Below are positions 19,782-45,093 of a DNA stretch of 64,000 nucleotides, one piece after another. Numbering within the stretch: the stretch's first letter is position 1; every line of letters begins with the position of its first letter. The stretch covers positions 53,053 through 117,052 of the forward strand of contig JAFEGM010000004.1 in assembly GCA_018240025.1 (NCBI GenBank), in the 5' to 3' direction. This DNA is from Verrucomicrobiota bacterium. Lineage in GTDB: Bacteria; Verrucomicrobiota; Verrucomicrobiia; Chthoniobacterales; SZAS-18. The notes beneath the pieces were generated by a model, which had not been told where the DNA came from, did not search any database, and saw only the letters and a program-made list of their open reading frames with translations. A program made the position numbers and the translations under genes.

Positions 19782-20539
19782 ATCGCCCCGACCCCCAGGA
19801 AGTCTCCGCGCGCATGGCCGAGCGGCTGCACGCGGCCCAGTCGCCCTGGGAACGCCGCCGGCTCAATGCGCGCGTGGCACTGCGCCGCCTGACCTGGCGG
19901 GTAGTGGTAGGCGGCACTTTCGCGCTCAAGCGCTTCCTCGACATCGTCATCAGCCTGACCTGCCTGATCCTCTTCGCGCCGCTCTTCCTGCTCCTGGCGC
20001 TGCTCGTGAAACTCGACGGCGGCCCGGTCTTCTTCGCCCAGACCCGCGTGGGCTTCCGGGGCAAGGAGTTCAAAATGCTGAAGTATCGCTCGATGATCGT
20101 GAACGCGGAAGCCCGGCTCGCCGAGCTGCTGGCGCAGAACGAAAAGGTCGGCGGCGTGACCTTCAAGATGAAGAACGATCCGCGCGTCACGAAAGTGGGC
20201 CGCTTCCTGCGCAAGTCCTCGCTCGACGAGCTGCCGCAGTTCCTCAACGTCCTGCGCGGCGAGATGTCGATCGTGGGTCCCCGCCCCGCCATCCCGCGCG
20301 AGGTGGAGCAGTATTCGCAGGCCGACCGCCGCCGCCTGCTCGCCAAGCCCGGCATCACCTGCCTCTGGCAAGTCGGCGAACGCGAAGGGCGCGTCTTCGA
20401 GATCGGCGACCGCAACGCCATCGGCTTCGACGAACAGGTCGAGCTCGATGTCCGCTACATCGAGACCCACTCGTTCTGGCGCGATCTCTGGCTCATGCTC
20501 AAAACGGTGCCCGCCATCCTGTTCGGAAAGGGAATGTAG
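19778..20539 (+). CDS. undecaprenyl-phosphate sugar phosphotransferase (initiating EPS transferase)
   Basis: 253 residues of the bacterial sugar transferase (ExoY/WbaP C-terminal) type. A single membrane hairpin ([20 protein letters not shown]) is followed by [40 protein letters not shown] and [18 protein letters not shown], the catalytic core. The enzyme transfers a sugar-1-phosphate from a nucleotide sugar to undecaprenyl phosphate, the first step of the repeat unit. It lacks the N-terminal multi-span domain of WbaP, so it is of the short ExoY form. ATGA-coupled to the upstream glycosyltransferase. Confidence 0.92.
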
Positions 20540-20541
20540 CC

Positions 20542-21348
20542 ATGTCCGATTTCCTGCTCTGCTGCCCTGCGATCGGGCCCGGTTTCGACCTGCTCGGGCG
20601 GCCCCGCCCGCTGGCGCTCTTTCCCTTCCTGGGCCGGCCGCTGCTCGATTTGGCGTTGGCCGATCTCGCCGCGCGCGGACGTCGCTCCGGCCTCGTGCTG
20701 ACCAACGACCGGCCGGCGGAAATCGCGGCCTTTCTGCTCGAGGGCAAGCCGTGGGGCCTGCGGACCGAACTCGTGACCACCGCCGGCGAGCCTGCGGCCG
20801 AGGCCGCGCAGCACTTGCCGGCGGGGGCCGAGTTGGTTGTGCTCGACCATCTCCCCGGGGCCGCCCCGGGCGGCCTGTGGGATGCGCCGGCCGCGCTTTT
20901 CGCGGCGCTTTCGTCGGAACTCGGGCGCTCCGGCGCGGACCGCCTGGGCATCGTGCAGACGCAGCCCGGCGTGTTCGTCCACCGACGCGCCCGCGTTTCG
21001 CCGCAGGCTCATCTCAGCGGGCCGTGTTGGATCGGCGAAGGCGCGGGCATCGGTCCCGGCGCGGAGATCGGCCCCGGCGCGATCATCGAGCAGCACAGTC
21101 TGGTCGATGCCCAGGCCACGGTGGTCGAGAGCTTCGTCGGTCCCGAAACGTACGTCGGTCAGATGACGGAACTCCGGCAGTCCTTCGCCTGGGGCAGCGG
21201 CCTGGTGAAATGGAGCACCGGCTCGCAAACCGAGGTGACTGATCGCTTCCTCTTGGCCGCTCTCGGCACGCGCGCGCCGACCGACGGCAGTTTCCTCGGG
21301 CGCGTGAAAGCCGCCTGGAAGGCCGCGTTTTCCAGCGCGCGCGACTGA
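20542..21348 (+). CDS. nucleotidyltransferase-like protein with left-handed beta-helix
   Basis: 268 residues. The N-terminal half resembles a sugar nucleotidyltransferase Rossmann domain (RPRPLALFPFLGRPLLDLAL) but has no LAAGxGTR pyrophosphorylase signature. The C-terminal half has hexapeptide repeats (ARVSPQAHLSGPCWIGEGAG, IGPGAEIGPGAIIEQ) of a left-handed beta-helix, as in GlmU-like proteins. It may bind rather than activate a sugar nucleotide. Located 2 bp after the initiating transferase and 19 bp before the STAS gene. The precise function is not recognised. Confidence 0.65.
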   Translation: MSDFLLCCPAIGPGFDLLGRPRPLALFPFLGRPLLDLALADLAARGRRSGLVLTNDRPAEIAAFLLEGKPWGLRTELVTTAGEPAAEAAQHLPAGAELVVLDHLPGAAPGGLWDAPAALFAALSSELGRSGADRLGIVQTQPGVFVHRRARVSPQAHLSGPCWIGEGAGIGPGAEIGPGAIIEQHSLVDAQATVVESFVGPETYVGQMTELRQSFAWGSGLVKWSTGSQTEVTDRFLLAALGTRAPTDGSFLGRVKAAWKAAFSSARD

Positions 21349-21367
21349 TCCCTGATTCCCCTCCCCC

Positions 21368-21670
21368 ATGAAAACCCTCTCTCAATCCGCCTCGCTGACG
21401 GTCTCTGACCTGACCGAAATGAACGCCGCCAACAGCGCCGGCCTGCGGGACGAGATCCGCGCCTCGCTGCTCGAATCCCAGCTCGAGCTCAACCTCGACC
21501 TCTCGGCCACGCGTTTCATCGACAGCAGCGGTCTAGGCGCCCTCATCGCGCTGCAGAAGACGATGCGGGCCCGCGGCGGGCAGCTCCGTCTCCTGCGACC
21601 ATCCCCGGTGGTGCTGCAGATCCTCGAACTCACCCGGCTCCATCGCGTGCTCGAAATTGTCCCCGCCTGA
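21368..21670 (+). CDS. STAS domain anti-sigma factor antagonist-like protein
   Basis: 100 residues forming one STAS domain. The phosphorylation loop ATRFIDSSGLGALIAL has the DSSGLG motif with the Ser that SpoIIAA/RsbV-type proteins use as a switch residue. In known systems an HPK-like kinase phosphorylates it and a PP2C phosphatase removes the phosphate. Both activities are predicted for the next gene, whose TTG start overlaps this stop by 14 bp. A pyrimidine-rich stretch precedes the ATG with no ribosome binding site. Confidence 0.9.
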   Translation: MKTLSQSASLTVSDLTEMNAANSAGLRDEIRASLLESQLELNLDLSATRFIDSSGLGALIALQKTMRARGGQLRLLRPSPVVLQILELTRLHRVLEIVPA

Positions 21671-23411
21671 TCCCCAGTTCGAAACCGGCGCAGGCGCGAC
21701 CTTCCGTCACCGCGCCGCCTGCAACCTCGTCGCGGTGCGGGAAGCCACGCGTCTGCTGCGGACCTTCCTGCAGGCCAGCGGCGTAGCGGAGGCCGAGGCG
21801 GACGCGCTCGAACTCGTCTGTGCCGAAGCGGCGAACAACGCCGTGCGTTACGCTACCGAGGCGGGCCGGGAGCGGTTGGTGGTGATCGAGGCGCTCTTGG
21901 GCGCCGGCTCGGTGGAACTCCGGGTGACCGATCACACACCCGGTTTCGACCTCCCGCTGGAGGTGGAACTGCCCGATCTCGACGCCGAGTCGGGCCGGGG
22001 GCTGTTTCTCATCCGGTCGATCATGGACGAGGTCGATTACCTCCGCGGCCGGGACGAGAACGTGCTCATCGCCCGCCGCGCCCTGCCGCGTCTGCCGGGA
22101 CGCGCGCCGACCGCGCGGGAGCTGGAGCTCGAGGCGGAACTCGGCCAGATGACCGAGGAGCTGGCCTCGGCCTACGAAAGTCTCTCCGCCATCTTTCGAT
22201 TCTCGACCGCGCTCGGTGGTTCCGAACGCGGCCCGGCCTGGATCGAGAAGTGGATGCTCGAGCTGTGCCGGGTCACCGGCGCCGATTGGTTCCAGTTTCG
22301 GCTGGCCGACCCGAAGGATCTTTCGCTCCGGATCGTCGCCTCGTCCGCGGTGGAGCCTGCGCCACCGCTAACCGCCAAAGCGGGCGGCGAAGACCTGGCG
22401 GAGGTCCGCGCCATCCTGACGCGACAGGACGTCTGGTTCGATCGACGCCAGGCCCTGGCCGAGGCGGACCCACTCCTCGCCTTTGGCCGGCGCATGAGCG
22501 GCGTGGTGCATCCGATCTTCGTCGGCGCCGACCCGACCGGAGTGCTCACGCTCGGTCGGGAAATCGAGGCGGACCCCTTCAGCGCCGGGCAGGTCAACGT
22601 CATCCACACGCTCGCCGATTTCCTCGGCATCGAGGTCTGCAATGCCCGCGTGCAGGACGAGAATCTGCGCGCCCGGGTGCTGCATCGAGAGCTGGAAATC
22701 GCCTCCAGCATCCAGGCTTCGCTGCTGCCCGCGGTCATCCCGCAGCAGCCCGGGCTCGCCCTGGCCGCCACCATGGCGGCGGCGAGCGAAATGGGTGGCG
22801 ACTTCTACGACGTCATCGAGATCCCCGGCACGGGCACGCTCCTGGTCATCGCCGACGTCATGGGCAAGGGCATGTCGGCCGCGCTCTTCGCGGCCATCTT
22901 CCGCAGCCACCTGCGTTCTCGGCTGGATCTGGCCCGCCAGCCCGAGCAGCTCCTGACCTGGGTGAACCGCACCCTCTTCGCCGACCTCGATCGGGTGGAC
23001 ATGTTCATCACCGCCCAACTCGCCCTGGTCGATCTCCCAGGGCGGCAGGTGCGCATCGCTTCCGCCGGCCACTGCCCGCTGCTCTTGGCCCAACCCGGCG
23101 GCGAGGTGCTGGAGTTCGGCTCGGAAGGACCTCCGCTCGGCATCGAGGCCGAAACCGCCTATCTCGGTTCCGCGCTCCCCCTGCGCCCGGGCGACACCGG
23201 CATCCTGTTCACGGATGGCGTGCCCGAGATGAGCGATCGCGAGGGCGATTTTTACGGCCTCGCGCGCTTCAAGTCGTGGTGGGGAGAGCGCGCCGGCGGC
23301 ACGCCCCCGGGCGAACTCGGCCGCGCCCTGATGGCGGAACTGGACGCTTTCCGCACCACCCGTCCGGCCCGTGACGATGTGGCCTTCGTCATCTTCCAAC
23401 ACCCTGCATGA
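21657..23411 (+). CDS. HATPase (RsbW-like)-GAF-PP2C (RsbU/SpoIIE-like) switch protein
   Basis: 584 residues starting at TTG 21657. Residues 10-140 form an anti-sigma-type HATPase domain (N box ELVCAEAANNAVRYA, G1 DHTPGFD, G2 GRGLFLI). A coiled-coil (145-175) and a GAF-like domain (180-335) follow. The C-terminal PP2C/SpoIIE phosphatase domain (about 370-580) has EMGGDFYDVIEI, VIADVMGKGMSAALFA and GILFTDGVPEM, with the metal-binding Asp residues present. One chain thus carries predicted kinase and phosphatase for STAS proteins. Overlaps the STAS gene upstream and the receiver gene downstream (ATGA). Confidence 0.88.
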   Translation: MSPPDPQFETGAGATFRHRAACNLVAVREATRLLRTFLQASGVAEAEADALELVCAEAANNAVRYATEAGRERLVVIEALLGAGSVELRVTDHTPGFDLPLEVELPDLDAESGRGLFLIRSIMDEVDYLRGRDENVLIARRALPRLPGRAPTARELELEAELGQMTEELASAYESLSAIFRFSTALGGSERGPAWIEKWMLELCRVTGADWFQFRLADPKDLSLRIVASSAVEPAPPLTAKAGGEDLAEVRAILTRQDVWFDRRQALAEADPLLAFGRRMSGVVHPIFVGADPTGVLTLGREIEADPFSAGQVNVIHTLADFLGIEVCNARVQDENLRARVLHRELEIASSIQASLLPAVIPQQPGLALAATMAAASEMGGDFYDVIEIPGTGTLLVIADVMGKGMSAALFAAIFRSHLRSRLDLARQPEQLLTWVNRTLFADLDRVDMFITAQLALVDLPGRQVRIASAGHCPLLLAQPGGEVLEFGSEGPPLGIEAETAYLGSALPLRPGDTGILFTDGVPEMSDREGDFYGLARFKSWWGERAGGTPPGELGRALMAELDAFRTTRPARDDVAFVIFQHPA

Positions 23412-23791
23412 ACGCTCGCATCCTCATCGCCGACGACGAGCCGCACATGCGCCGGGTCATCGAACTCAGTCTCCGTCGCGGCGGCTACGAACTGGTCATC
23501 GCGCGCGACGGCCACGAAGCCGTCCGGCTGGCGCGCTCGGAGCAACCCGCGCTCATCGTCATGGACGTCAACATGCCCGAGCTCAACGGCGTCGAGGCGT
23601 TGCGGACGCTCAAGCAGACGCCGGAGACCGCCGCGATCCCCGTCATCATGCTGACCGCCCGCGGCCATGTGCTGACGCGCCACGAAGCGGAAAGCTCCGG
23701 CGCCGCGCTCTTCCTGACCAAGCCCTTCAGCCCGACCCAGCTGCTCGACGAAGTTCGTCGGTTGCTGCCCCCTGCCTCTGCGACGCCATGA
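23408..23791 (+). CDS. single-domain response regulator (receiver)
   Basis: 127 residues, a receiver domain only: ILIADDEPHMRRVIELSL (acidic pair), LIVMDVNMPELNGVEAL (phospho-Asp), IPVIMLTARG (Thr switch) and FLTKPFSP (Lys). All five key residues are present, so it should be phosphorylated. It could be the endpoint of the phosphorelay from the hybrid kinase at 14792, or an input to the phosphatase upstream. ATGA overlaps with both neighbours. Confidence 0.92.
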   Translation: MNARILIADDEPHMRRVIELSLRRGGYELVIARDGHEAVRLARSEQPALIVMDVNMPELNGVEALRTLKQTPETAAIPVIMLTARGHVLTRHEAESSGAALFLTKPFSPTQLLDEVRRLLPPASATP

Positions 23792-24963
23792 AACCCATTC
23801 TTCCGCTTTTCATCATGCTGGATGCCGCGGGCTGGGAGATCCTGCGCGACCGCGACTTCCTCACCGCCGAAGCGCCGCATCGGCGCAAGCTCGAGAGCGT
23901 CTTCGGCTACAGCTCGGCCTGCGTGCCGAGCATCGTCTCCGGCCGCTGGCCCGATTCGCACCGCAACTGGTCGTACTTCGTCTACGACCCGCCGAATTCG
24001 CCCTTCCGCAAACTGAAGGGCCTCCGCCTGCTGCCCAATGCGCTGACCAGCCGGCGCATCGTCCGCCGCATTCTCACCCGGCTGCTCAAGCGCGGCCTCG
24101 GCTTCCGCGGCTACTTCGATCTCTACAACATCCCGTTCCAGTACATCTCGCTCTTCGACTTCTCCGAGAAGAAGAGCCCGTTCACGCCCGGCGGGATGAA
24201 CCGCGGGGAGAACATCTTCGATTTCCTCACGCAGCGCGGGATTCCCTACTACATGAACGACATCGAGCGGCCCGAGCCGGAGACGCGGGACCAGCTCATC
24301 GAACGGATCCGTTCGGAGTCGATCGACTTCGCTTTCGTGTATTGGCCGGGCCTGGACGGGCTGATGCACCTGCACGGCAACGACTCGCCGCGCATCGTCG
24401 ACCAGCTCGCCGGCTATCAGGACTGGATCGGCGCCATCATGGCCGCGGCGCGCGAGCACTACGCGGACTTGCGGCTCTTCGTCTTCTCCGACCACGGCAT
24501 GGCCAATTGCGACGAACATCTCGATCTGCGCGCCGTCATCGAACGGCTGCCGCTGCGGTTCGGCGAGGACTACACCGCGGTCTACGATTCGACCATGGCG
24601 CGGTTCTGGTTTCATCGGCCGGCCGCGCGGGGGGCGATCGAGGCGGCGCTGCGGACCGTGCCGGAGGGCCGTGTCATCGAAGACGCCGAGCTGGCCGAAC
24701 TGCACACGCTCTTCGAAGACCGGTATTTCGGCGAACTCATCTTCCTGCTCCGCGAGGGCGTGCTGCTCGTGCCCAGCCACATGGGGGAGCGGCCCATTCG
24801 CGCCATGCACGGCTACCATCCGGCCGACCGCCACAGCAAGGCGTCGCTGCTGACCAACCGGACCGATGTGCCTGAAAGCATCACGGCCATTCCGCATATC
24901 TACCAGCTCATGACCACCCACGCGCTCGCCGCCCAGGCGGCCAACGGGGGCGCCCCGGCCTGA
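23788..24963 (+). CDS. alkaline phosphatase-superfamily (nucleotide pyrophosphatase/phosphodiesterase-like) protein
   Basis: 391 residues. Metal-site motifs of the alkaline phosphatase superfamily are in order: IMLDAAGWEI (Asp), SSACVPSIVSGRWP (Ser/Thr nucleophile region), WPGLDGLMHLHG (Asp/His), FVFSDHGMANC (SDHGM) and MHGYHPADRHSK (His). The protein has no signal peptide, so it probably acts on cytoplasmic or membrane-face substrates. Related genes occur in polysaccharide loci, where they may modify or release phosphorylated glycans. Substrate unknown. ATGA-coupled to the receiver gene. Confidence 0.8.
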   Translation: MKPILPLFIMLDAAGWEILRDRDFLTAEAPHRRKLESVFGYSSACVPSIVSGRWPDSHRNWSYFVYDPPNSPFRKLKGLRLLPNALTSRRIVRRILTRLLKRGLGFRGYFDLYNIPFQYISLFDFSEKKSPFTPGGMNRGENIFDFLTQRGIPYYMNDIERPEPETRDQLIERIRSESIDFAFVYWPGLDGLMHLHGNDSPRIVDQLAGYQDWIGAIMAAAREHYADLRLFVFSDHGMANCDEHLDLRAVIERLPLRFGEDYTAVYDSTMARFWFHRPAARGAIEAALRTVPEGRVIEDAELAELHTLFEDRYFGELIFLLREGVLLVPSHMGERPIRAMHGYHPADRHSKASLLTNRTDVPESITAIPHIYQLMTTHALAAQAANGGAPA

Positions 24964-24965
24964 CC

Positions 24966-26240
24966 ATGCAACCGTCGGGCCCCAGGTGCATCGTCCACGT
25001 CCCGCGCCGCTTCATCGCGGAGGAATGGGGCGGCACGGAGACCGTCATCCTGGAGATCGCCCGCCGGCAGCAGCGCGCCGGCTTGGAGCCGCGCATTCTC
25101 ACCAGCATGGCGCTGGCCCGGCAGCGCACCGAGGAGATCGGCGGCATCCCGGTGGAGCGATTTCCGTATTTCTACCCCTTCTTCGGTCTGACCGCCGCCG
25201 ACCGCGCCGCCATGGACAAGAAGGGCGGCAATCTCGTCTCCTTCTCGCTGCTGCACCGGCTGCTGCGCCTGTCGGATGTCCGTCTTTTCCATGCCCATGC
25301 GCTCAAGCGCCTCGGGGGCGAGATCCGCACCGCGGCGCGGCTGCGGCGCAAGCCCTACGTCGTCTCGCTACACGGCGGCGTGTTCGACGTCCCGCCGGCC
25401 GAGCTGGCCTCCATGGCGGAGCCGATCGCCGGTCGCTTCGAGTGGGGGCGCTTCCTCGGGGCGCTCTTCGGCTCGCGCCGTCTGCTCGACGAAGCGGACC
25501 ACGTCATCTGCGTCGGCCAGAGCGAGCTGGAGAAGGCGCGGCAGGCGCTGCCGCACGATCGCGTCAGCTACCTGCCCAACGGCGTCGACACCGCCCGCTT
25601 CGCCCAGGCCGACGGCGCTGGCTTCCGCGCCAGGCACGGCCTCGCGCCCGATGCCTTCGTGGTGCTCAATGCCGGGCGCATCGCCGCGCAGAAGAACCAG
25701 CATCTGCTCGTGGAAGCCTTCGCCCGCGTGCTGGCGGAACGGCCGGGCTCGGTGCTGCTGCTGATGGGACCGGAGACCGATCCCGACTACGGCGCCCGGG
25801 TGCGGGCCGCGGCCGAACCGCTGGGCGGCGCCGTCCGCCTGCTCGGCAGCGTGCGCAACGACGATCCCGACCTCGTGGCCGCCTTCCACGCGGCCGACCT
25901 GTTCGCGCTCCCCTCGCGTCACGAGCCGTTCGGCATCGTGGTGCTCGAGGCCTGGAGCGCCGGCCTGCCCGTGGTGGTCAGCAGCGTGGGCGGATTGCGC
26001 GCCCTCGTGCGGCAGGACGAGACCGGGCTGTTCTTCGATCCAGAGGGCGAGTCCGCCGCCGAGCGACTGGCCGAGCGCATCCTCTTCGCCGCCGCCCGGC
26101 CGGAACTCCGCCGCCGCCTCGGCGCCGCCGGCCTGGCCGAGGCGCGGGCGCAGTATGACTGGGACCGCATTCACGACCGCCTGGAGGGCATCTATGCCCG
26201 CGCCGAAGCCCATGCCGCCAGCCGCGGCCGCCCGTCATGA
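24966..26240 (+). CDS. glycosyltransferase family 4 protein
   Basis: 424 residues, GT-B fold. N-terminal part: IVHVPRRFIAEEWGGTETVI, with a Gly-Gly-x-Glu acceptor-side loop. Donor half: VVLNAGRIAAQKNQHLLVEA, then DLFALPSRHEPFGIVVLEAW, the EX7E motif. Likely adds one sugar of the EPS repeat unit on the cytoplasmic face. Begins 2 bp after the phosphodiesterase-like gene and ends in an ATGA overlap with the flippase gene. Confidence 0.9.
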   Translation: MQPSGPRCIVHVPRRFIAEEWGGTETVILEIARRQQRAGLEPRILTSMALARQRTEEIGGIPVERFPYFYPFFGLTAADRAAMDKKGGNLVSFSLLHRLLRLSDVRLFHAHALKRLGGEIRTAARLRRKPYVVSLHGGVFDVPPAELASMAEPIAGRFEWGRFLGALFGSRRLLDEADHVICVGQSELEKARQALPHDRVSYLPNGVDTARFAQADGAGFRARHGLAPDAFVVLNAGRIAAQKNQHLLVEAFARVLAERPGSVLLLMGPETDPDYGARVRAAAEPLGGAVRLLGSVRNDDPDLVAAFHAADLFALPSRHEPFGIVVLEAWSAGLPVVVSSVGGLRALVRQDETGLFFDPEGESAAERLAERILFAAARPELRRRLGAAGLAEARAQYDWDRIHDRLEGIYARAEAHAASRGRPS

Positions 26241-27790
26241 AGGCCGGCTCCGTCACCAGCACGCTTTGGCGCACCTCGGTTTCGAGCTATCTGCGCACGC
26301 TCCTCCGCCTCGGCCTCGGGCTCGTCACGTTTCGCCTGCTTTTTCAGTCGCTCAGCCCGGAGGATTTCGGCTTCTGGGCGCTCCTCTGGAGCGTCTTCGG
26401 CTACGGCGTGCTGATCGACTTCGGCCTCGGCTTCGCCACCCAGAAACGCGTGGCCGAACTCGTGGCCCACGCGCGCTGGGACGAGCTGAGCCGCGTGCTC
26501 TCGACCGTGCTGGTCAGCTTCTGCGGGCTGGCGGTGGTCATCTTCGTGGCGGCGTGGTTCGGGACCGATTTCGCGCTTCGCCTGCTGAACGTCACGCCTG
26601 AGAACCTGCCGCGGTATCGCGACGTCACCCTCCTCTTTTTCGGCGGCATGGCGCTCGGCTTTCCGCTCGGACTCTTCCCCGAGATCCTGCGCGGCCTGCA
26701 GCGCGTCGAGACCGCCAATCTCGTGGCCAGCGTCTCGCTGGTGGCCAATTTCGTGCTCGTCGTCGCCGCCGTGCAGCTCGGCTGGGGACTGAAGGCGCTC
26801 GTGCCGATGGCCCTTGCCTGCACGCTCGGCCAGGACCTCGTCTGCGGTCTGCTCGCGCTGCGCCTGCTTCCCGAGGTGCGCCTGCGGCTGCGCCTGTTCG
26901 AGACACGGATCGCCCGGGAGACGATGCAGTTCTCGATCTTCGCCTACCTCATTACCGCAACCAACCTGATCCTCGGGAAGTCCGACCAGTTGGTGCTCGG
27001 CGCGATGCTCTCGGTGGCCAGCGTGGCGGTCTACACCGCCGGCGCGAAAGTCGCGGAGATCTTCGCCCTCGGCACCAAACAACTGCAGGAGACGCTCTCG
27101 CCCGCGGCCGCCAAAATGCAGGCCACCGGCGACACCGCCGGCCTGCGCGAATTGCTCCTGCAGGGCACGCGACTCAGCCTGCTGGTCGCGCTGCCGGCTT
27201 ACGCGCTCTTCGCCCTGCGCCTGCCGGAATTCATGCGTCTCCTGACCGGCTCCGGGTCTCTGCCCGACGACGCCTGGTGGACCGGCCAGCTGCTGCTCGC
27301 CTGGACGCTCAGCACGGTCGCCACGAATGCGGCCAGCAAGCGGATCTTCATCATGACCGGGCATGAACGCCGCCTGCTTTGGATCGGCGTGATCGAGGCC
27401 GTGGCCAATCTCGGCTGCACCATCGGCCTGCTCTGGCTCTATCCACGCGTCTCCAGCGCCGCGCTCGGTTCGCTCATCCCGGGCGCGCTGCTCGGCTGGC
27501 TCGTCATCTGGCCCTGGGCCGCGCGCGAGGCGGGCTCGACGTCCTTCGCGCTGTTCCAATTCGCGGTCCGGCCCGCATTGCTGGCCGCGGTGCCGGTGGC
27601 GCTGGTCCTGGGCGGACTCGGCTTCGTGCCGCATCCGAGCGCGATTCCGCCCACCCTCGTTTTCCTGGTCGAATGCGGCCTCGCCACCGCCGCCGGCCTC
27701 GCGGGCGTGGTCGCCTTCGGGCTTTCCCCGGAAGAGCGCGCCGCGCTGACGCGCCGACTTCGCCGCACCCCCGCCCCGTCCACGCCATGA
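26237..27790 (+). CDS. Wzx-type polysaccharide flippase
   Basis: 517 residues with about 12-14 hydrophobic helices through its length (for example FCGLAVVIFVAAWFG, VSLVANFVLVVAAVQLGW, LLVALPAYALFALRL). The N-terminal segment SSYLRTLLRLGLGLVTFRLL and the loop QRVETANLVASVS are typical of oligosaccharide flippases of the MOP superfamily. It would move the lipid-linked repeat unit to the periplasmic face. The matching Wzy-like polymerase is at 46568 outside this operon. ATGA-coupled on both sides. Confidence 0.88.
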   Translation: MKAGSVTSTLWRTSVSSYLRTLLRLGLGLVTFRLLFQSLSPEDFGFWALLWSVFGYGVLIDFGLGFATQKRVAELVAHARWDELSRVLSTVLVSFCGLAVVIFVAAWFGTDFALRLLNVTPENLPRYRDVTLLFFGGMALGFPLGLFPEILRGLQRVETANLVASVSLVANFVLVVAAVQLGWGLKALVPMALACTLGQDLVCGLLALRLLPEVRLRLRLFETRIARETMQFSIFAYLITATNLILGKSDQLVLGAMLSVASVAVYTAGAKVAEIFALGTKQLQETLSPAAAKMQATGDTAGLRELLLQGTRLSLLVALPAYALFALRLPEFMRLLTGSGSLPDDAWWTGQLLLAWTLSTVATNAASKRIFIMTGHERRLLWIGVIEAVANLGCTIGLLWLYPRVSSAALGSLIPGALLGWLVIWPWAAREAGSTSFALFQFAVRPALLAAVPVALVLGGLGFVPHPSAIPPTLVFLVECGLATAAGLAGVVAFGLSPEERAALTRRLRRTPAPSTP

Positions 27791-31075: not shown

Positions 31076-31082
31076 ATTTCCG

Positions 31083-31667
31083 ATGAACGCCGCCCCCGTC
31101 GCCGACCCCGCCCCGCCGCCCGCGGCCGCGAGCCAGTGGGGGTTGCTGCAGGCGGACGTCCGCCGCAATCTGCGCGACTACGAGCCCTGCTCGGGCCTGC
31201 GCCGGCTCGCGCTCTGCCTCACGCTGAACAGCATCCACGCGCTCGTGCTCCTCCGCCTCCAGCTCTGGTGCGCGGCCCACGGACTGCCCGGCATCTTCTT
31301 CAGCAAGCCACTCTTCTGGTTCTTCGGCATCGAGGTCGCCAACTCGGCACGCATCGGCCCGGGCCTGCGCCTGCCGCATCCGATGGGCATCATCATCGCG
31401 CCGAACACGACCATCGGAGCCAATTGCGATCTCTACGCCGACACCCGACTCGTGCTCGGTCATGGCAGCAAACGCGGTCCTACGCTCGGCGACGGCGTTT
31501 TCCTCGGCGACGGAGCCAAGGTGGTCGGCGGAGTCACGGTCGGCGCCGGCACCGTGGTCGGCGTTTCGTCGGTCGTGACCAAGGACCTGCCCGCCGACGT
31601 CACGGCGGTCGGCATTCCCGCCCGCGTCATTCGCCAGGGCCGGCCGGAACTTTCCCCCGAGGCATGA
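31083..31667 (+). CDS. serine acetyltransferase-like hexapeptide acyltransferase
   Basis: 194 residues. The N-terminal 85 residues are hydrophobic/helical, and the rest is a left-handed beta-helix: ANSARIGPGLRLPHPMGIII, then GVFLGDGAKVVGGVTVGAGT, then VVGVSSVVTKDLPADVTAVG. This matches the CysE/EpsC-type O-acetyltransferases found in EPS operons, with the catalytic His in LPHP. It probably acetylates a sugar of the repeat unit, though a housekeeping CysE role cannot be excluded. Starts 7 bp after the previous stop; ATGA with the next gene. Confidence 0.82.
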   Translation: MNAAPVADPAPPPAAASQWGLLQADVRRNLRDYEPCSGLRRLALCLTLNSIHALVLLRLQLWCAAHGLPGIFFSKPLFWFFGIEVANSARIGPGLRLPHPMGIIIAPNTTIGANCDLYADTRLVLGHGSKRGPTLGDGVFLGDGAKVVGGVTVGAGTVVGVSSVVTKDLPADVTAVGIPARVIRQGRPELSPEA

Positions 31668-32860
31668 AGATCCTCTCGCTCTATCCCACCGTGCCCTGGC
31701 CGCTCGACCGCGGCACGCACCAGCGGAGCTATCACCTGCTGCGCGCGCTCGGCGAGCGGCACGAAGTGGATGCCGTCATGCTGACCGAGGACGGCACCGA
31801 CGCCTCGCCGGAGCCGTTCGCTCCGTTCTGCCGGCAGGTCGAGTTCCTGCCCTTCCGGCATCCGCAATGGAAGACGCTCCTCGGCGGACGCCTGCTCGAT
31901 CCGCTGCCGTCGAATGTCGCGCATTGGGCCGATCCGGAAGTCGCGCGCCGACTGCAGGAGCGGATCGCACGCGAACGCTACGACCACATTCACCTCTGCG
32001 ACCTGATCCTCGCGCCCTACGTGCTCGGGTCCGGCGTGCCCTTCTCGGTCGATCGCTCGCGGGTCGATCTGCAATACCAATGGATGGAGCACCGCAGCCT
32101 GCAGCTCGGCTTCGGCACGCGTCTGCTGCGCTGGGAGAATTACGCCAAGCTGTGGTGGTTCGAACGCCGCATCGCCCGCGCGGCCGCCTTCGAGGTGGTC
32201 TGCGGCCCGGACGACGAGACGTTCCTCCGTCGGCACATCACCCGCCGGGGCCGCATCCATGTGGTCGGCAATGGGGTCGACCTCGGCTTCTTCCGGCCGG
32301 ATGCAGCCAGCGAGCCGCGCGACGCGGAGCCGACCGTCCTGTTCTGCGGGGCGATGGACTACAATCCGAACGTCGACGCGCTCGACTGGTTCTTCCGCGA
32401 GATCCACAGCGCCGTCCTCGCCCAGGTGCCGCAGCTGCGTGTGCTCATCGTCGGCAAGAATCCGGTGCCGGCGGTGCAGGCCCACGCGACGCGGCCCGGC
32501 GTGACGGTCACGGGCACAGTGCCCGACGTCCGCGCCTACTACCGCCGCGCCTGGGCGCAGATCGTGCCGCTGCGCATCGGCGGCGGCACGCGGCTGAAGA
32601 TCCCCGAGAGCATGGCCATGGGCACGCCCGTGGTCAGCACGCCGATCGGCGCGCAGGGGCTCGACCTGCAGCACGGCTCCGAAGCGCTGCTGGCGGAAAG
32701 CGCGGACGATTTCGCGCGCGAGACCATCCGCCTCCTGACCGACGCCAGCCTCCGCTCCGCCGTGGAAGCGACCGGCCGCGCCGCCGCGCAGGCCCGCTTT
32801 TCCTGGGCCCGCATGGGCGATCTGCTCTGCCAGGCCTTCTCCCCTCGCCCGCAGCCATGA
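31664..32860 (+). CDS. glycosyltransferase (GT4), possibly PEP-CTERM/EPS-associated type
   Basis: 398 residues. MKILSLYPTVPWPLDRGTHQ and RSYHLLRALGERHEVDAVML form the N-terminal GT-B half; the donor half has TVLFCGAMDYNPNVDALDWF and PLRIGGGTRLKIPESMAMGT. This pattern is that of GT4 proteins often labelled sugar transferase, PEP-CTERM/EpsH1 system associated (TIGR03087-like); I cannot confirm the subfamily by score. It would elongate the EPS repeat unit. Coupled to the acetyltransferase gene and to the WecG-STAS gene by ATGA overlaps. Confidence 0.85.
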   Translation: MKILSLYPTVPWPLDRGTHQRSYHLLRALGERHEVDAVMLTEDGTDASPEPFAPFCRQVEFLPFRHPQWKTLLGGRLLDPLPSNVAHWADPEVARRLQERIARERYDHIHLCDLILAPYVLGSGVPFSVDRSRVDLQYQWMEHRSLQLGFGTRLLRWENYAKLWWFERRIARAAAFEVVCGPDDETFLRRHITRRGRIHVVGNGVDLGFFRPDAASEPRDAEPTVLFCGAMDYNPNVDALDWFFREIHSAVLAQVPQLRVLIVGKNPVPAVQAHATRPGVTVTGTVPDVRAYYRRAWAQIVPLRIGGGTRLKIPESMAMGTPVVSTPIGAQGLDLQHGSEALLAESADDFARETIRLLTDASLRSAVEATGRAAAQARFSWARMGDLLCQAFSPRPQP

Positions 32861-34338
32861 ACGCCGCCGCCCCCGCTCCCGCGCTCGAATCCGGCCAGCC
32901 CATCGCCATGCTGGGCGTGCCGTTCGACAACGTCACCCGGCAGCAGGTCCTGGCGCGGGTGGATGCCATGGTGCAGTCGCGCCGGCCGCACTACATCGCG
33001 ACCGCCAACGTCGACTTCCTCGTGCAGGCGCTGGAGGACATCGAGCTGCGCCGCATCCTTTTCGATGCGGATCTCGTGGTCTGCGACGGCACTCCGCTGC
33101 TCTGGGCCTCGAGCTGGCTGGGCAATCCGCTCCCCGAGCGCGTGGCCGGCTCCGACCTCGTGCCGGTGCTGCTCGAAGTGGCCGCGCAGAAGGGATATCG
33201 CATCTTCTTTCTCGGCGGACGCGACGACATCGCGAAGAAGGCCGAGGCGAATCTCCGCACACGCTATCCCGGACTCGTGATCGCCGGCCGCTACAGCCCG
33301 CCGCTCGCGACCTTGCTGGAGATGGACCACGCCGACATCCGTCGCCGTATCCAGGATGCGCAGCCGGACATCGTGCTGGTTTCGTTCGGCTGCCCGAAGC
33401 AGGAGAAATGGATCGCCATGAACTACCGCGAGTCCGGCGTGCCGGTCTCGATGGGCGTGGGCGCCACCATCGATTTTCTGGCCGGCGCGGTCTCGCGCGC
33501 GCCAGTCTGGATGCAGCGGTCCGGTCTGGAATGGATCTATCGCCTGCTGCAGGAGCCCAAGCGTCTCGCCCGGCGCTACGGCCACGATCTGCGCGTCTTC
33601 GGCCTGGCCATCGTGCAGCAGTGGTGGCGCATGAAACAGCGGCCCGCGCGTGGCGCTGGCCCGGCTGTGCCATCCACGCCGGCTGCCACCCCGCCGGCCG
33701 AGGCGGCGGCCCCTGCGGGCATCTCCGTCCTGCGACTGCCGGAGCGCCTCGACGCCGCCGCGGTCAACACCGAGCGCGCGGCCTGGGAGGCGGTCGATCG
33801 CCGCTCCGGCCTCGTGCTCGATCTCAGCGGCACCACGTTCATCGACAGCACCGGCGTCGGCTTTCTCATGCGCCTGCGCCGCCGCGCCCGCGAGGAAGGC
33901 GTGGGCTTCGCGCTGGCCGCGCTGCAGCCGGCCGTGGCCCGGGCGCTGACCATGATGAAGCTGGCCGACTTCTTCCCCACGGCGGCGGACGTGGCGGCAG
34001 CCCGCGTGCTGCTCGCCCAGGCCGCGCCGGCCTCGGTGTCGAGCGCGGCCGCGCGGCAGCTGGCGCTGCACGGCGAGGTGACCTCGCTGACGCTCGCCTC
34101 CACCACGCAACCGGCCGAAGCGGGGCTCGCCGCGCTGCCAACGGGAGACGAATTCACCATCGACCTCGCGGGCGTGACCTTCATCGACAGCAGCGGCATC
34201 GGCGCACTCGTCCGTCTGCGGAAGCTCGCCACGCGCGGCGGAGTGCGGCTGCATTTCCGGAATGCGACCGAACCGGTGCGCAACGTCCTGCGCCTCACCC
34301 GCCTGACCGAGTACATCCTGGGAGGCCCGGCGACATGA
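32857..34338 (+). CDS. WecG/TagA/CpsF glycosyltransferase fused to two STAS domains
   Basis: 493 residues. Residues 15-255 are a WecG/TagA/CpsF (GT26) domain: IATANVDFLVQALEDIELRR, LVVCDGTPLLWASSWLG, RIFFLGGRDDIAKKAEANL, VLVSFGCPKQEKWIAMNY and MGVGATIDFLAGAVSRAP. A proline/alanine linker leads to two STAS domains at about 288-385 and 400-493. Their loops are TTFIDSTGVGFLMRL (Thr about 332 at the switch position) and VTFIDSSGIGALVRL (Ser about 446). Both are phosphorylatable in principle. The GT26 domain would transfer ManNAc-like or other sugars to a lipid-linked precursor. The fusion would let an RsbW/RsbU-like module act directly on a glycosyltransferase. ATGA-coupled both sides. Confidence 0.92.
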   Translation: MNAAAPAPALESGQPIAMLGVPFDNVTRQQVLARVDAMVQSRRPHYIATANVDFLVQALEDIELRRILFDADLVVCDGTPLLWASSWLGNPLPERVAGSDLVPVLLEVAAQKGYRIFFLGGRDDIAKKAEANLRTRYPGLVIAGRYSPPLATLLEMDHADIRRRIQDAQPDIVLVSFGCPKQEKWIAMNYRESGVPVSMGVGATIDFLAGAVSRAPVWMQRSGLEWIYRLLQEPKRLARRYGHDLRVFGLAIVQQWWRMKQRPARGAGPAVPSTPAATPPAEAAAPAGISVLRLPERLDAAAVNTERAAWEAVDRRSGLVLDLSGTTFIDSTGVGFLMRLRRRAREEGVGFALAALQPAVARALTMMKLADFFPTAADVAAARVLLAQAAPASVSSAAARQLALHGEVTSLTLASTTQPAEAGLAALPTGDEFTIDLAGVTFIDSSGIGALVRLRKLATRGGVRLHFRNATEPVRNVLRLTRLTEYILGGPAT

Positions 34339-35468
34339 GGATCGGCCTCACCACCTCCGTCATGCAGCGGGGCCGATCCGGCGTCGGCCAGTACATCCTG
34401 AGCCTGGCGCGGACGCTGGCCCAGCGCCCGGCCGACGGCCACGAGTTCGTCCTCTTTGTCCTGCGGGAGGATCTGCCGCTCTTCGATTTCGCCGCAGGCC
34501 GGCTCCAGCTCGAGGTCGTCGAGGAGGCGCAGCGCAGCGCGGTCCGCGACATCCTCTGGCATCACACCCAGCTGCCTGGACGGGCGCGGCGGCTCGGCCT
34601 GGACGTGGTCCACGTGCCCAGTTATCGCCGACTGACGGCCCGCGGCGACTACGCGCGCGTCGCCACCATTCACGATCTCGCGCCGTTTCGACTGGCCGGG
34701 AAATACGATTGGGCCCGCATGCTCTACGGCCAGCAGGTCGTGCCGCGGCTGGCCCGGCGACAGCATGCGGTCATCGCGGTGAGCGAAACCACCGCGGCTG
34801 ACATCCGTCATTTCCTCGGCGTCCGCGACGACCGGCTCTCGGTCATCCTCAACGGCATCGACCACACGCGCTTCCGCCCGGATCCGACGGCGACGCGCGA
34901 GGGCTCCTTCCTCTACGTCTCGCGTCTGGAGCATCCGGCGAAGAACCACGTCCGGCTGATCGAGGCGTTCGAGCAGTATCGGGCGGCCGGCGGCACGTGG
35001 GAGCTGCATCTGGCCGGCAGCGACTGGCACGGCGCGGAGGAGATCCACGCCCGCATCGCCCGCAGTCCCTGCGCCGGTGCGATCCGCCGGCTGGGCTTCG
35101 TGGCCGACGCCGATCTCCCGGGCCTCTACCAGCACGCCGGCGCCCTGGTCTATCCTTCGCTCTTCGAAGGTTTCGGCCTGCCGGTGGTCGAGGCCATGGC
35201 CTGCGCCTGCCCGGTGCTCTGCAGTACCCGCGGCTCGCTCGGCGAGGTCTCGGCCGACGCCGCGCGGCACATCGACCCCGAGGCGCCGGCCGACCTCGCC
35301 GCCGGCCTGCGCGCCCTGGCGGAGGACGAGGGCCTCCGCGCTGAACTGACAACCCGCGGGCTGCGCCGGGCGCAGGACTTCGCCTGGGAGCGGGCGGCGC
35401 AGCAATGCCTCGCGGTGTACGCCGCCGCCCTCGCCCGCGCACGGGGCAGGACAACCGCGGACGAGTAA
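34335..35468 (+). CDS. glycosyltransferase family 4 protein
   Basis: 377 residues, GT-B fold: MRIGLTTSVMQRGRSGVGQY, then HDLAPFRLAGKY, then FLYVSRLEHPAKNHVRLIEA, and YPSLFEGFGLPVVEAMACAC (EX7E). The class resembles mannosyl- or rhamnosyl-transferase-like GT4 enzymes that act in polysaccharide chains. Last glycosyltransferase of the long operon, with an ATGA overlap to the WecG-STAS gene and a 3-bp gap to the export gene. Confidence 0.9.
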   Translation: MRIGLTTSVMQRGRSGVGQYILSLARTLAQRPADGHEFVLFVLREDLPLFDFAAGRLQLEVVEEAQRSAVRDILWHHTQLPGRARRLGLDVVHVPSYRRLTARGDYARVATIHDLAPFRLAGKYDWARMLYGQQVVPRLARRQHAVIAVSETTAADIRHFLGVRDDRLSVILNGIDHTRFRPDPTATREGSFLYVSRLEHPAKNHVRLIEAFEQYRAAGGTWELHLAGSDWHGAEEIHARIARSPCAGAIRRLGFVADADLPGLYQHAGALVYPSLFEGFGLPVVEAMACACPVLCSTRGSLGEVSADAARHIDPEAPADLAAGLRALAEDEGLRAELTTRGLRRAQDFAWERAAQQCLAVYAAALARARGRTTADE

Positions 35469-35471
35469 TGT

Positions 35472-38400
35472 ATGGCTGCAGACGCCGATCCGCCTCCCGC
35501 CGAAACGCGCGGTGCCGGCGTGCCTGCATCCGTCTCCGCGGACATGACCGATCCCAACGCATCTCCAGCCAGCGGCGCGCCGCTCTCCGCCCCTTTGGCG
35601 GAGGCGGCCAAGCCCGGCTTTCAGCTGCCGGTGGATCCCTTCCGGGCGCTCGATGCGGTCGTCCGACATGCCCGGCAGATCCTCATTGTGGCTGCGGTGG
35701 TTGCGCAGGTGCTCGCCCTGCTCGCCTTCCTGCGAGTGCGCGACCAATACGTGGCCGCCGTCCAGCTGATCCGCCAGGAGCCGCCCAACGCGTTCCGGGT
35801 CTCCGAGTCGGGCGAGGCCTTCAAGCCGCGCGCGCTGACGGTGCAGACGGTCCTCAGCCTGATGAAATCCAACACGCTTCTTCAGCGCGTGAGCGCAAAG
35901 CTGAAGGGTGCGATCACGCCGGGCGAACTGCTGCGCAGCCTGAACATCGTGGCGGAGAAGAACACCGAGATCATCCGGGTGGAGTTCAAGACCGCCGCGG
36001 GGTCGGAGACCGCGGCCCGCGTGATCAACGCCTACGTCGGCGAAGTGGTGGCCTTGACCCGCGAGATGCAGTCGGACGAGGCCACGGTGGTGAATCGATT
36101 CCTCAAGCAGCAGATCGCCCGCTCGGACGAGGAGCTGCGGCGCATCGGTCTGGAAATCCAGGCGTTCAGCCGCGAGGCCAAGTTCCTCAGTGCGGACAAG
36201 GAGATCGATGCCGCCCTGCGCCGGGTGAGTGAGATCGAGCTGAAGTTCGAGGGCACCCGCATCGAGTTCGAGTCGATCGCCGTCCGCATCGCCGCGACCG
36301 AGGCGGAGCTCGCGAAGCACAGCCCGAGCGCCGCCAAGCTGCAGAGCGCCCGGGACGAGCTTTCCAGCCTGCTCACGCGCCTGACGGACGAGAATCCGCT
36401 GGTGAAGGAGCAGCGCGCCCGCATCGCCGCGCTGGAGAAACAGGCGGCTGAGGCGCCGGCCGGTCCGATGGCCTTTCCGCAGAAGGGCGAGAACGGCGTG
36501 GCGGAGAACCTCTTCCTTTCGCTGGTGCAGCTGCGCGCGCAGCAGAAGTCGCTGGCCGAGCAGACGCGCATGCTCGACGAACTGCGCAAGAACCTGACCA
36601 AGGAGCTCGGCGAGCTGCCGGAGAAGGAGCAGCGCTTCGCCCGGCTGCGCGCCCGCCAGCAGTCGGTCGAGACCGCCCGGCTGATGATGGCCGGCCGGCA
36701 GCGCGAGGCCGAGCTCTTCGAGGAGAATGCGCTCGGCTACTATCGCATCATGGCCGCCGCCGGCGCCGACGACGTGGAGGTGCTCTCGCGCTGGCGCAAG
36801 ATCTTCCTCGCCCTCGGCGCCGGGCTCGTGCTCGGCCTGGGCGGCGCGGCCGTCTGGTTCGCCTGGCGCGCGACCCGCGACGGCGTGCTGCGCTCGCCGG
36901 CCGATTTCTCGCGGGTGGTCGGTCAGCCCGTGCTGGCCACGCTGCCGGAGGGCGTGACGACCGCCACGGCGCGCGAGGCCTGGGCCTTCCGGACCTGGAC
37001 GACGCTGCGCAACCGCCTCGCGCTGGGCGACGGCGGACTCGTTTGTGGCTGGCTTGCGCCCGCCCCCGGCGTGGCGGGGCCGCTGCTGGACCTCTTCGGC
37101 CGCGCTGCGGCGCAGCGCGGAGCCCAGGCGATCATGCTGGCGCATTTCGAGGCGGTGGAATCGCCCCTGCTCGATCAAGTCCTGGCCCAGCCGGCCGACG
37201 TCCTGCCGCTGCTCGAGACCGATCCGCTGCTGCACGTCCACATCCCGGGCGACTTCGCCTGGGACGCCGCGCGCCGGAAGGCCTGGCGCCAGGCGGAAGC
37301 GCTCTGGCGCGAATACGGAATCGTCGTCTTCCTCGAAATCACGCGCCCCGAAGAGCCGGAGTCGGTCCTGCTCGCCGAGCAGCTGCCGCAGGTGGTCTGC
37401 CTCGGCCGGAGCGGCGAGGCCAGGGAGGAGGACTTCGCGCATCTGCTCGTGCCCTACCAAACCGGCGAATGCCAGCTGCGCGGCGTGGCGGTGGATCGGG
37501 CCCCGCTCCTCCGTCCGCGCTGGCTGGTCGAACGATTCGGCGTCCTGCTCGCCTCCGCGGCGCTCGGGCTCGGCGCGCTGGTCTTCCCGCCGACCACCTG
37601 CGCGGAAACCCTGCCCGCCCGGTCCAGCGCGGTCCGACCGAAGCGCGCGGCCTGGCAGGAGAAGCTCACGCTGGGCGCCGGTGACATCGTGCGCATCTCC
37701 GTCTACGGGCATCCCGAACTTGGCCAGCCCGAGGTTACGCTCGGGGCCGACGGACGCATCACCTTCCTCAATGTGAACGGCTTCCCGGCGGCCGGGCTGA
37801 CCATCGACGAGCTGCGCGAACGGCTGACCCGCGAGGTCAGCCGCTACTACCAGAACGCGCGCGTCGTGGTCGCTCCCGTGGCCTTCCTCAGCAAGCGCGT
37901 CTACGTCCTCGGCAAGGTCGTAAACAAGGGGGCGATCGTGCTGGAGCGCCCGCTCACCATCCTCGAAGCGGTGGCCGAGGCCGGCGGACTGGAGACGGGA
38001 CTTTACCAGCAGAACACCGTCGAACTGGCCGACCTCCCGCGCTCGCTGCTGGTCCGCAAGGGCAAGCGGCTGCCGGTCGATTTCGAAAAGCTCTTCATGA
38101 AGGGAGATCAGTCGCAAAATCTCGCGCTCGAACCCGACGACTACATCTTCTTCCCCTCCTCGAACACCAACGAGTTCCACCTGCTCGGCGCCGTGGCCCG
38201 GCCGGGGACCCAGGGCCTGACCGGTGGGTCCTCGGTCATCTCGGCCCTCAGCGTGGCCGGCGGCTTCACCGATCGCGCCTGGCGCCGGCGCATCCTGGTC
38301 GTGCGCGGTTCACTGACGCAGCCGAAGGCCTTCATCGTCGATCTCGACGCCATCCTGGCCGGCCGCTCGCCCGACTTCCGCATCGAGCCACGCGACCTCA

Positions 38401-38543
38401 TCTACGTCGCCGACCGCCCGTGGGCCAAGGTCGAGGATCTGCTTTCGGTGGCCATGAATGCCTTCACCCAGGCCGCGGTGGCCAGTTGGACCGGCGCGAA
38501 CATCGGCCCCATCATCAAGCGCCCGCTCATTCCCAGCCCATGA
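35472..38543 (+). CDS. copolymerase (Wzz/Wzc-like)-pseudo-tyrosine kinase-OPX export fusion
   Basis: 1023 residues in one uninterrupted frame. TM1 lies at about 67-89 (ILIVAAVVAQVLALLAFL), a periplasmic coiled-coil region at 90-435 with Wzz/GNVR character, and TM2 at about 443-463. Residues 470-685 sit where a BY-kinase would be, but Walker A reads APGVAGPLLD (no GK[ST]) and Walker A-prime and B acids are gone. A third hydrophobic segment (688-706, FGVLLASAALGLGALVF, then FPPTTCAET) leads to a polysaccharide export (Wza-like) domain (LTLGAGDIVRISVYGHPEL, about 732) with SLBB repeats (RVYVLGKVVNKG). One protein would thus bridge inner membrane to outer-membrane exporter. Start at 35472, 3 bp after the GT4 stop. 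Confidence 0.88.
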   Translation: MAADADPPPAETRGAGVPASVSADMTDPNASPASGAPLSAPLAEAAKPGFQLPVDPFRALDAVVRHARQILIVAAVVAQVLALLAFLRVRDQYVAAVQLIRQEPPNAFRVSESGEAFKPRALTVQTVLSLMKSNTLLQRVSAKLKGAITPGELLRSLNIVAEKNTEIIRVEFKTAAGSETAARVINAYVGEVVALTREMQSDEATVVNRFLKQQIARSDEELRRIGLEIQAFSREAKFLSADKEIDAALRRVSEIELKFEGTRIEFESIAVRIAATEAELAKHSPSAAKLQSARDELSSLLTRLTDENPLVKEQRARIAALEKQAAEAPAGPMAFPQKGENGVAENLFLSLVQLRAQQKSLAEQTRMLDELRKNLTKELGELPEKEQRFARLRARQQSVETARLMMAGRQREAELFEENALGYYRIMAAAGADDVEVLSRWRKIFLALGAGLVLGLGGAAVWFAWRATRDGVLRSPADFSRVVGQPVLATLPEGVTTATAREAWAFRTWTTLRNRLALGDGGLVCGWLAPAPGVAGPLLDLFGRAAAQRGAQAIMLAHFEAVESPLLDQVLAQPADVLPLLETDPLLHVHIPGDFAWDAARRKAWRQAEALWREYGIVVFLEITRPEEPESVLLAEQLPQVVCLGRSGEAREEDFAHLLVPYQTGECQLRGVAVDRAPLLRPRWLVERFGVLLASAALGLGALVFPPTTCAETLPARSSAVRPKRAAWQEKLTLGAGDIVRISVYGHPELGQPEVTLGADGRITFLNVNGFPAAGLTIDELRERLTREVSRYYQNARVVVAPVAFLSKRVYVLGKVVNKGAIVLERPLTILEAVAEAGGLETGLYQQNTVELADLPRSLLVRKGKRLPVDFEKLFMKGDQSQNLALEPDDYIFFPSSNTNEFHLLGAVARPGTQGLTGGSSVISALSVAGGFTDRAWRRRILVVRGSLTQPKAFIVDLDAILAGRSPDFRIEPRDLIYVADRPWAKVEDLLSVAMNAFTQAAVASWTGANIGPIIKRPLIPSP

Positions 38544-45062: not shown

Positions 45063-45077
45063 GACGCCGGCCCCCTT

Positions 45078-45093
45078 AGCACGGGCCGTGCCA
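45078..45093 (-). promoter_or_regulatory. possible sigma-54 promoter, also a perfect palindrome
   Basis: On the minus strand TGGCACGGCCCGTGCT has GG and GC separated by 10 bp and matches the TGGCACG -24 element exactly. The -12 element is GTGCT rather than TTGCW. The same bases 45079-45091 form a 13-bp palindrome. The predicted start would lie only about 5 bp ahead of the ATG at 45062 and downstream of the apparent ribosome binding site, which weakens the promoter reading; an operator is the alternative. Confidence 0.4.

Follow-up and report, generated by a model that had tools for sequence, protein, structure and literature searches.

Partner switching is best known for freeing or holding sigma factors. 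The question raised by the stretch of DNA described here is whether an enzyme can stand at the end of such a circuit. The stretch (hereafter the window) comprises 64,000 nucleotides (nt) from a Verrucomicrobiota bacterium of the order Chthoniobacterales (assembly GCA_018240025.1, contig JAFEGM010000004.1, positions 53,053 to 117,052 of the forward strand). Within a predicted exopolysaccharide cluster it encodes a glycosyltransferase of the GT26 (WecG/TagA/CpsF) family fused to two STAS domains, as well as a protein that joins the predicted kinase and phosphatase of such domains. Judging from sequence comparisons, we consider it rather probable that this cluster encodes a partner-switching circuit which has the fusion as its immediate output.

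A GT26 glycosyltransferase followed by two STAS domains

The fusion gene and its parts are:
32857..34338 (+): GT26 (WecG/TagA/CpsF) glycosyltransferase with two STAS domains, 493 aa (profile searches, AlphaFold2 model, structure matches)
32899..33579 (+): GT26 catalytic domain with the C-terminal appendage residues, approximately residues 15–241 (alignment to TagA, 7mpk; conservation)
33556..33636 (+): predicted long helix 234–260, which extends the TagA-like appendage (AlphaFold2 secondary structure and per-residue confidence, pLDDT)
33709..34002 (+): STAS1, residues 285–382 (Pfam profile, structure matches)
33847..33849 (+): codon of the switch serine S331 in D330-S331-T332-G333 (translation; S331 in 120/120 aligned entries)
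34084..34305 (+): STAS2, residues 410–483 (Pfam profile, structure matches)
34189..34191 (+): codon of the switch serine S445 in D444-S445-S446-G447 (translation; S445 in 120/120 aligned entries)

Both C-terminal parts, taken for STAS domains in an earlier note made from the sequence of the window, indeed score above the Pfam cut-off and show the STAS fold, and the fold of the whole fusion is a confident prediction of the model. A frame artefact or a chance match was ruled out by the profiles, the recurrence of the architecture and the structure matches. The intact switch loops that the note had claimed at residues 330–333 and 444–447 were confirmed as well: D330, S331, G333, D444 and S445 are invariant in an alignment of 120 database entries (query included) in which mean column identity is only 0.54 in STAS1 and 0.56 in STAS2. 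The phosphosites it had proposed, T332 and S446, are one residue off. The phosphoserine is presumably the residue that follows the Asp (Ser58 of SpoIIAA, Ser56 of RsbV); alignment and conservation place the switch serines at S331 and S445, and T332 and S446 were rejected.

The GT26 profiles match far above their curated cut-offs (PF03808: 222.2 bits vs 27.4; TIGR00696: 154.7 vs 69). In the alignment to 7mpk the key residues of TagA have direct equivalents: T49 corresponds to T37, D77 to D65, R95 to R83, Q182 to Q167, R229 to R214 and R236 to R221, while R240 falls in the region of R224. All of these are present in 120/120 database entries except D77, found in 119. Among 80 copies retrieved with their genomic surroundings the complete catalytic and appendage set is found in 75, and three more (L055, L091, L106) differ at one position. 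The fused enzyme presumably transfers a sugar to a polyprenyl-diphosphate acceptor. TagA/TarA of Thermoanaerobacter italicus, a chain of 244 aa, stops after the appendage and carries no STAS domain, and its product and donor sugar may differ from those of the fusion. In the latter, helix 234–260 runs toward STAS1 via a linker of low pLDDT (approximately residues 261–280). In the STAS-free GT26 proteins fetched from the window's order (L006–L030), position 49 is mostly occupied by V, A or P, compared with the catalytic Thr of the fusions and TagA.

The earlier note had called for a survey of the same fusion elsewhere, and such a survey shows that the fusion is not unique to the window. All 120 database entries (the best 120 of 2839 matching, with 7993 candidates scored) carry the GT26 and STAS Pfam models of the fusion. 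The 80 genome loci are the best 80 of 552 confirmed stretches found by similarity to the window's protein, and the genome count is a lower bound; by their titles, 76 belong to Verrucomicrobiota, two are called only "bacterium" (L046, L074), one is from Luteimonas panaciterrae (L099) and one is a contig filed as an archaeon (L108). A recent local fusion was rejected because the Pfam set recurs throughout the 120 entries and in the majority of the 80 loci. In a phylum-wide sample 27 of 194 genomes match the fusion protein at E ≤ 1e-60. Leaving aside the window's own genome, 26 carriers remain; the region was fetched from 20 of these, and in 18 there is a STAS profile match behind the GT26 part. 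Within the window's order the distribution is patchy: among 57 genomes (the window's own counted in), of which only 30 regions were inspected as loci, the fusion was recognised in the window's genome, in G042 and, with degenerate motifs, in G014. Another carrier, the complete genome of IMCC26134, is of the same class as the window's. The copy of L. panaciterrae, a gammaproteobacterium by name, is an 812-aa frame (9749-12184) with the order GT26-STAS-STAS and a further C-terminal part; no HATPase-GAF-PP2C profile match was found in the 17 kb around it (L197).

According to the earlier note, loss of the switch residues in orthologues would refute its proposal; such loss is seen in a minority of copies. 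The Asp-Ser pair is kept in 77/80 genome copies of STAS1 (the exceptions are DG twice and DC once) and in 64 of the 68 readable copies of STAS2 (the others read DT twice, DC once and DG once, the last where a frame is cut off), so that three STAS1 and four STAS2 domains have lost it, and both serines are gone in G014. In the remaining 12 copies STAS2 is not readable; three of them (L078, L080, L093) run off the available sequence, and the other nine stop after STAS1.

A candidate partner module and its association with the fusion

The candidate partners of the fused STAS domains are encoded upstream of the fusion:
14792..18601 (+): hybrid histidine kinase with PAS, GAF, HisKA, HATPase_c, receiver and Hpt domains, upstream of the cluster (profiles)
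21368..21670 (+): 100-aa free STAS protein with S53 in the switch motif FIDSSG (profiles, alignment)
21657..23411 (+): protein with a HATPase_c_2 domain (residues 24–139), a weak GAF match and a SpoIIE/PP2C domain (residues 391–582), predicted TTG start (profiles, motif conservation)
23408..23791 (+): stand-alone CheY-like receiver, directly 3' of the kinase/phosphatase gene (profiles)

The presence of a free STAS gene and a HATPase-GAF-PP2C gene in the same cluster, to which the earlier note had drawn attention, is borne out. The kinase domain matches PF13581 with E 1.8e-23 and the phosphatase domain matches PF07228 with E 1.9e-42. Across the window's protein and 60 relatives, E57, N61, D92 and G115, which we take to be the kinase motif residues, are intact in 61/61 sequences, and so are D382, D400, D520, D573 and D574, presumably the metal ligands of the PP2C phosphatase. 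The protein is predicted to be the kinase and phosphatase of the STAS domains. The Ser of the free STAS protein aligns with the residue after the Asp in SpoIIAA, the protein also aligns with RsbV, and Asp-Ser is found in 49/49 kinase-adjacent STAS proteins. The hybrid histidine kinase is a possible input to the circuit.

Neighbourhoods were counted at 60 of 71 kinase places, namely those that were fetched. The free STAS gene adjoins the kinase on the same strand in 48/60 and the receiver gene adjoins it in 49/60; at 48 places there is at least one of four locus markers (relatives of the sugar transferase, the acyltransferase, the flippase and the phosphodiesterase of the window), and at 12 there is none. 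In IMCC26134 the fusion, a STAS gene on the opposite strand, the kinase/phosphatase and the receiver lie in a row, followed by a dihydrouridine synthase gene. In a tree of 97 STAS segments, chosen from STAS1, STAS2 and free STAS sequences already retrieved, 34 free STAS proteins form one group (support 0.995), 30 of 31 STAS1 segments form another (0.962) and STAS2 is scattered, so the tree gives no order of origin for the three. At the DNA level, the repeats detected in 14000-40000 comprise the cores of the three STAS domains plus a small number of weak pairs.

A relative of the kinase/phosphatase (E ≤ 1e-40) is present in 67 of the 80 fusion-carrying genomes (36/40 and 31/40 in two sets). In 21 genomes it lies on the contig of the fusion, at a gap of 485–22,971 nt (median 9,241), and on the same strand in 16/21; 0.63 such cases would be expected by chance, a figure which presupposes long contigs and a single gene of this kind in each genome. 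The distance shrinks to 0.5–0.9 kb in IMCC26134, G100, G117 and G065, and the side and strand of the kinase vary among the linked genomes. In the window's order, both G042 and G014 have kinase, free STAS and receiver near their GT26-STAS fusions, and among the STAS-free GT26 regions fetched, the two closest (G053, G026) revealed neither a kinase nor a STAS match. The kinase is not a universal gene of the phylum at the cut-off used (7/194 genomes). We regard the partner link as well supported for the window's clade and leave the wider phylum outside the claim.

Possible roles of the fused STAS domains

A number of observations weigh against the fusion being the output of such a circuit, and they are set out here beside the alternatives on which they bear. 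The STAS domains could serve for dimerisation or docking, or as a scaffold that brings the enzyme into the export complex, in the manner of MlaB or SLC26 proteins, with no phospho-switch at all. MlaB and SLC26 structures, whose STAS folds do not switch in this way, match the fused domains too. In the distant classes of the phylum 13/20 aligned copies have a WL-x-x-x-E motif in STAS1, the Ser being kept in 12 and the Asp in two, although Asp-Ser of STAS2 is kept in 11 of the 12 copies where STAS2 aligns; STAS1 may have turned into a different kind of domain there. Nine fusions (L075, L079, L084, L085, L087, L088, L094, L096, L103) make do with STAS1. The copy of G014 (L207, 8636-10150) reads DAAG and DGDG, i.e. 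it lacks both switch serines, with kinase, free STAS and receiver nearby, and in 13/80 fusion genomes no kinase was found at E ≤ 1e-40. Against such a role stand the invariance of Asp-Ser in both domains of all 120 entries, in contrast to residue 446 and the greater part of the domain, which are variable, and the kinase/phosphatase gene, which recurs in 67/80 genomes and is linked in 21. We hold a purely structural role to be unlikely.

The group with WL-x-x-x-E consists of L172-L179, L181, L182, L185, L186, L188 and L189, except L173, which has no STAS. The titles of several STAS1-only fusions name Akkermansiaceae, Akkermansia, Haloferula or Rubritalea.

It is also conceivable, albeit somewhat less so than a structural role, that the kinase/phosphatase acts on the free STAS protein, that the latter has another target (a regulator of transcription or a different enzyme), and that the fused domains serve as a titrating partner by which the enzyme informs the regulator. 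The same-strand adjacency of free STAS and kinase at most of the places counted would fit this, and STAS proteins elsewhere end on regulators, according to the available part of a review (PMC8256260). In G058, G087, G107, G127 and G130 the kinase lies elsewhere than the long contig of the fusion; many other contigs are too short to judge linkage. In two copies, L086 (9914-11353) and L102 (4264-5790), neither the catalytic Asp nor R95 nor the arginines of the appendage are left and both Asp-Ser switches are preserved, which indicates that the STAS part can serve without catalysis; they may be pseudo-enzymes acting only as regulators. L086, from genome G112, is 1.3 kb from the kinase, and preserved switches beside the kinase are what one expects if the kinase acts on STAS domains. 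Against titration, 78/80 copies keep the catalytic Asp and all or nearly all key residues together with the switches. No sigma factor offers itself as the other target either: no match to the SigB/F/G model above its cut-off was found in the window's genome (92.5% completeness), for which reason the system is not classed as sigma-B/F type, and no sigma-factor domain was found among the proteins in the part of the window scanned with Pfam. Two sigma-factor-like matches in the genome do lie below that cut-off (123 and 119 bits vs 234).

G067 contains an intact fusion copy and a second partial match (residues 8–211), which may be a similar pseudo-enzyme.

Finally, the fusion and the kinase could be neighbours only by inheritance of one polysaccharide block, with the fused domains answering to a different kinase. 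Both linkage and co-occurrence track descent, and the co-occurrence is confounded by it since similarity to this very protein was what led to the 80 loci. Besides the kinase of the locus, the window's genome contains two RsbW-like HATPase regions with PP2C (C102, C121). In the phylum-wide sample the kinase is present in 2/27 genomes with a fusion match and 5/167 without (cut-offs E ≤ 1e-60 for the fusion and E ≤ 1e-40 for the kinase; the two draws of 194 share genomes as far as these are listed), which at these cut-offs gives the link no support and speaks against it. This low co-occurrence is in part a matter of sensitivity, as SpoIIE domains lie near the match in five more genomes: G290, G173, G182, G303 and G172 have one on the contig of the match, 14–31 kb away, and a profile built from the 61 kinases identified full-length homologues in the first four and the two domains in reversed order in G172. 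Together with IMCC26134, 6/26 other carriers thus have SpoIIE within approximately 32 kb of the match; in the other 20 there is no SpoIIE domain within that distance on the same contig. Simple inheritance of a block sits poorly with the very short distances in IMCC26134, G100, G117 and G065 combined with the changing side and strand of the kinase, and we consider this explanation very improbable.

The best reading of the locus remains a partner-switching circuit similar to that of SypE and SypA from Vibrio fischeri, in which the glycosyltransferase itself is the output; both the phosphorylation and its effect are predictions. The HATPase domain would bind the fused STAS domains and phosphorylate S331 and S445, the PP2C domain would remove the phosphate from them, and the free STAS protein would compete for the same kinase. 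The histidine kinase together with the receiver, or the GAF-like part, would decide whether the kinase or the phosphatase activity dominates. We suggest that the unphosphorylated form of the enzyme would be on and the phosphorylated form off because this was reported for SypA: unphosphorylated SypA promotes biofilm and phosphorylation by SypE inactivates it (PMC4517449, in the available text). The substitutions of the switch serines fit this sign, as they comprise Gly, Cys, Thr, Ala and one Ile (in L172, where the motif is otherwise changed) and never Asp or Glu, which could be expected if the phosphorylated form were active, with the numbers being small.

The coupling would probably go through the appendage. 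In TagA the C-terminal appendage was proposed to dock on the membrane, break up an inactive dimer and bring Arg221 to the active site (PMC6493773, in the available text). Since the predicted helix 234–260 continues from the appendage toward STAS1, partner binding or phosphorylation at the STAS domains could block or permit the docking. The step gated in this way would be an early one, i.e. the addition of a sugar onto the lipid carrier once the Bac_transf enzyme of the cluster has started the chain. If this is true, the fusion supplies a candidate regulator for the appendage-gated mechanism of GT26 enzymes.

Relation to known systems and the surrounding cluster

In Bacillus the output of partner switching is a sigma factor. 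The RsbW/RsbV/RsbU and SpoIIAB/SpoIIAA/SpoIIE systems resemble the window's in the families involved (HATPase kinase, STAS switch, PP2C phosphatase) and differ from it in that the window's kinase and phosphatase are one protein, as well as in the lack, in the window's genome, of the SigB/F/G match discussed above. By sequence the nearest solved relative of the phosphatase domain is 6k4e, a "putative serine phosphatase" (E 4.7e-11), which we take to be SiaA from Pseudomonas; the NCBIfam SiaA model matches the window's protein below its cut-off. The STAS protein on which SiaA acts has a diguanylate cyclase rather than a glycosyltransferase under its control.

The likeness to Vibrio fischeri is closer. 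There, a bifunctional serine kinase/phosphatase (SypE) and a STAS protein with a Ser switch (SypA) control polysaccharide-dependent biofilm with a hybrid histidine kinase as input (PMC4517449); in the window, too, the polysaccharide locus is accompanied by a hybrid histidine kinase. SypE is itself a response regulator, whereas in the window the receiver is the separate gene 23408-23791 and the kinase domain is followed by a GAF-like stretch before the phosphatase domain; a profile search found no receiver match inside the window's kinase/phosphatase chain, and the weak GAF match stands in its place. SypA is a free STAS protein, whose target and mode of action are described as unknown in the available text of PMC4517449 and PMC8256260, while in the window STAS domains are also fused to a glycosyltransferase. 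Partner switching is also mentioned for the hmp locus of Nostoc in the context of polysaccharide-dependent biofilm (PMC8256260, available text).

The earlier note knew of no such design for this enzyme family, and this stands insofar as no description of GT26 joined with STAS was found in searches of the open-licence literature, judged by titles, abstracts and the available text. The association of a glycosyltransferase with STAS as such does have a precedent, all4160 of Anabaena, which is reportedly required for the heterocyst envelope polysaccharide (this is the title of Wang et al. 2007). It has been called a probable glycosyltransferase (PMC4390870), and the available text of review PMC8256260 describes it as a glycosyltransferase with an N-terminal STAS domain and reports no partner kinase for it, in contrast to the C-terminal STAS domains of the window's fusion; the two are likened by description only. 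A further candidate precedent for STAS and glycosyltransferases in Verrucomicrobia, PMC7159879, was rejected, as its available text concerns conflict systems. The system is therefore made of known parts with what would be a new output, with Syp partner switching and one STAS glycosyltransferase preceding the GT26-STAS fusion.

We see about an even chance that in an entire lineage of Verrucomicrobiota partner switching has come to act on catalysis instead of transcription, the STAS phospho-switch having become part of a lipid-linked glycosyltransferase, so that the kinase/phosphatase of the locus toggles polysaccharide synthesis directly, without new gene expression. If so, the logic of gene fusion would suggest that the target still sought for the SypA-like free STAS proteins of other bacteria is an export-pathway glycosyltransferase, and a STAS switch fused to its enzyme makes the question of the SypA-type target directly testable. 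Verrucomicrobiota are common in soil and fresh water and hard to study, and the fusion, if it works as proposed, would be a candidate control point of their capsule formation.

The genes of the surrounding cluster, all on the plus strand from about 18.6 to 39.6 kb, suggest that it makes an exopolysaccharide:
19778..20539 (+): Bac_transf polyprenyl-phosphate sugar transferase, predicted to catalyse the initial reaction of the pathway (profiles)
20542..21348 (+): hexapeptide-repeat acyltransferase-like protein (profiles)
23788..24963 (+): type I phosphodiesterase-like protein (Pfam profile match within the longer frame 23371-24963; start deduced from its overlap with the receiver gene)
24966..26240 (+): group 1 (GT4) glycosyltransferase (Pfam profile)
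26237..27790 (+): Wzx-like flippase (profiles)
31136..32860 (+): group 1 glycosyltransferase, directly upstream of the fusion and overlapping it by 4 nt (Pfam profile, sequence)
34335..35468 (+): group 1 glycosyltransferase, directly downstream of the fusion and overlapping it by 4 nt (found in the longer frame 33408-35468; start read from the sequence)
35472..38543 (+): polysaccharide chain-length-determinant-like and export (Poly_export, SLBB) protein (profiles)

A relative of the phosphodiesterase-like protein occurs in 39/60 kinase regions. Promoter- and terminator-like sites in 18000-36000 show no excess over shuffled sequences, and Rfam and tRNA scans of the window gave no match. The 1023-aa frame 35472-38543 matches TIGR03007 at residues 152–500 (below the cut-off) and Poly_export and SLBB at 730–946; it would be unusual for inner- and outer-membrane export parts to be joined in one chain. 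A second Poly_export/SLBB protein follows in frame 38420-39607. A few kb from the cluster, 9841-12144 on the minus strand encodes a SulP-type transporter with a STAS domain and a C-terminal cyclic-nucleotide-binding domain. Just past the cluster, also on the minus strand, are a 784-aa frame with C-terminal DUF3485 (40428-42782; the EpsI/exosortase-associated model matches below the cut-off) and a DUF4114 protein (44223-45185), which together possibly represent an exosortase system.

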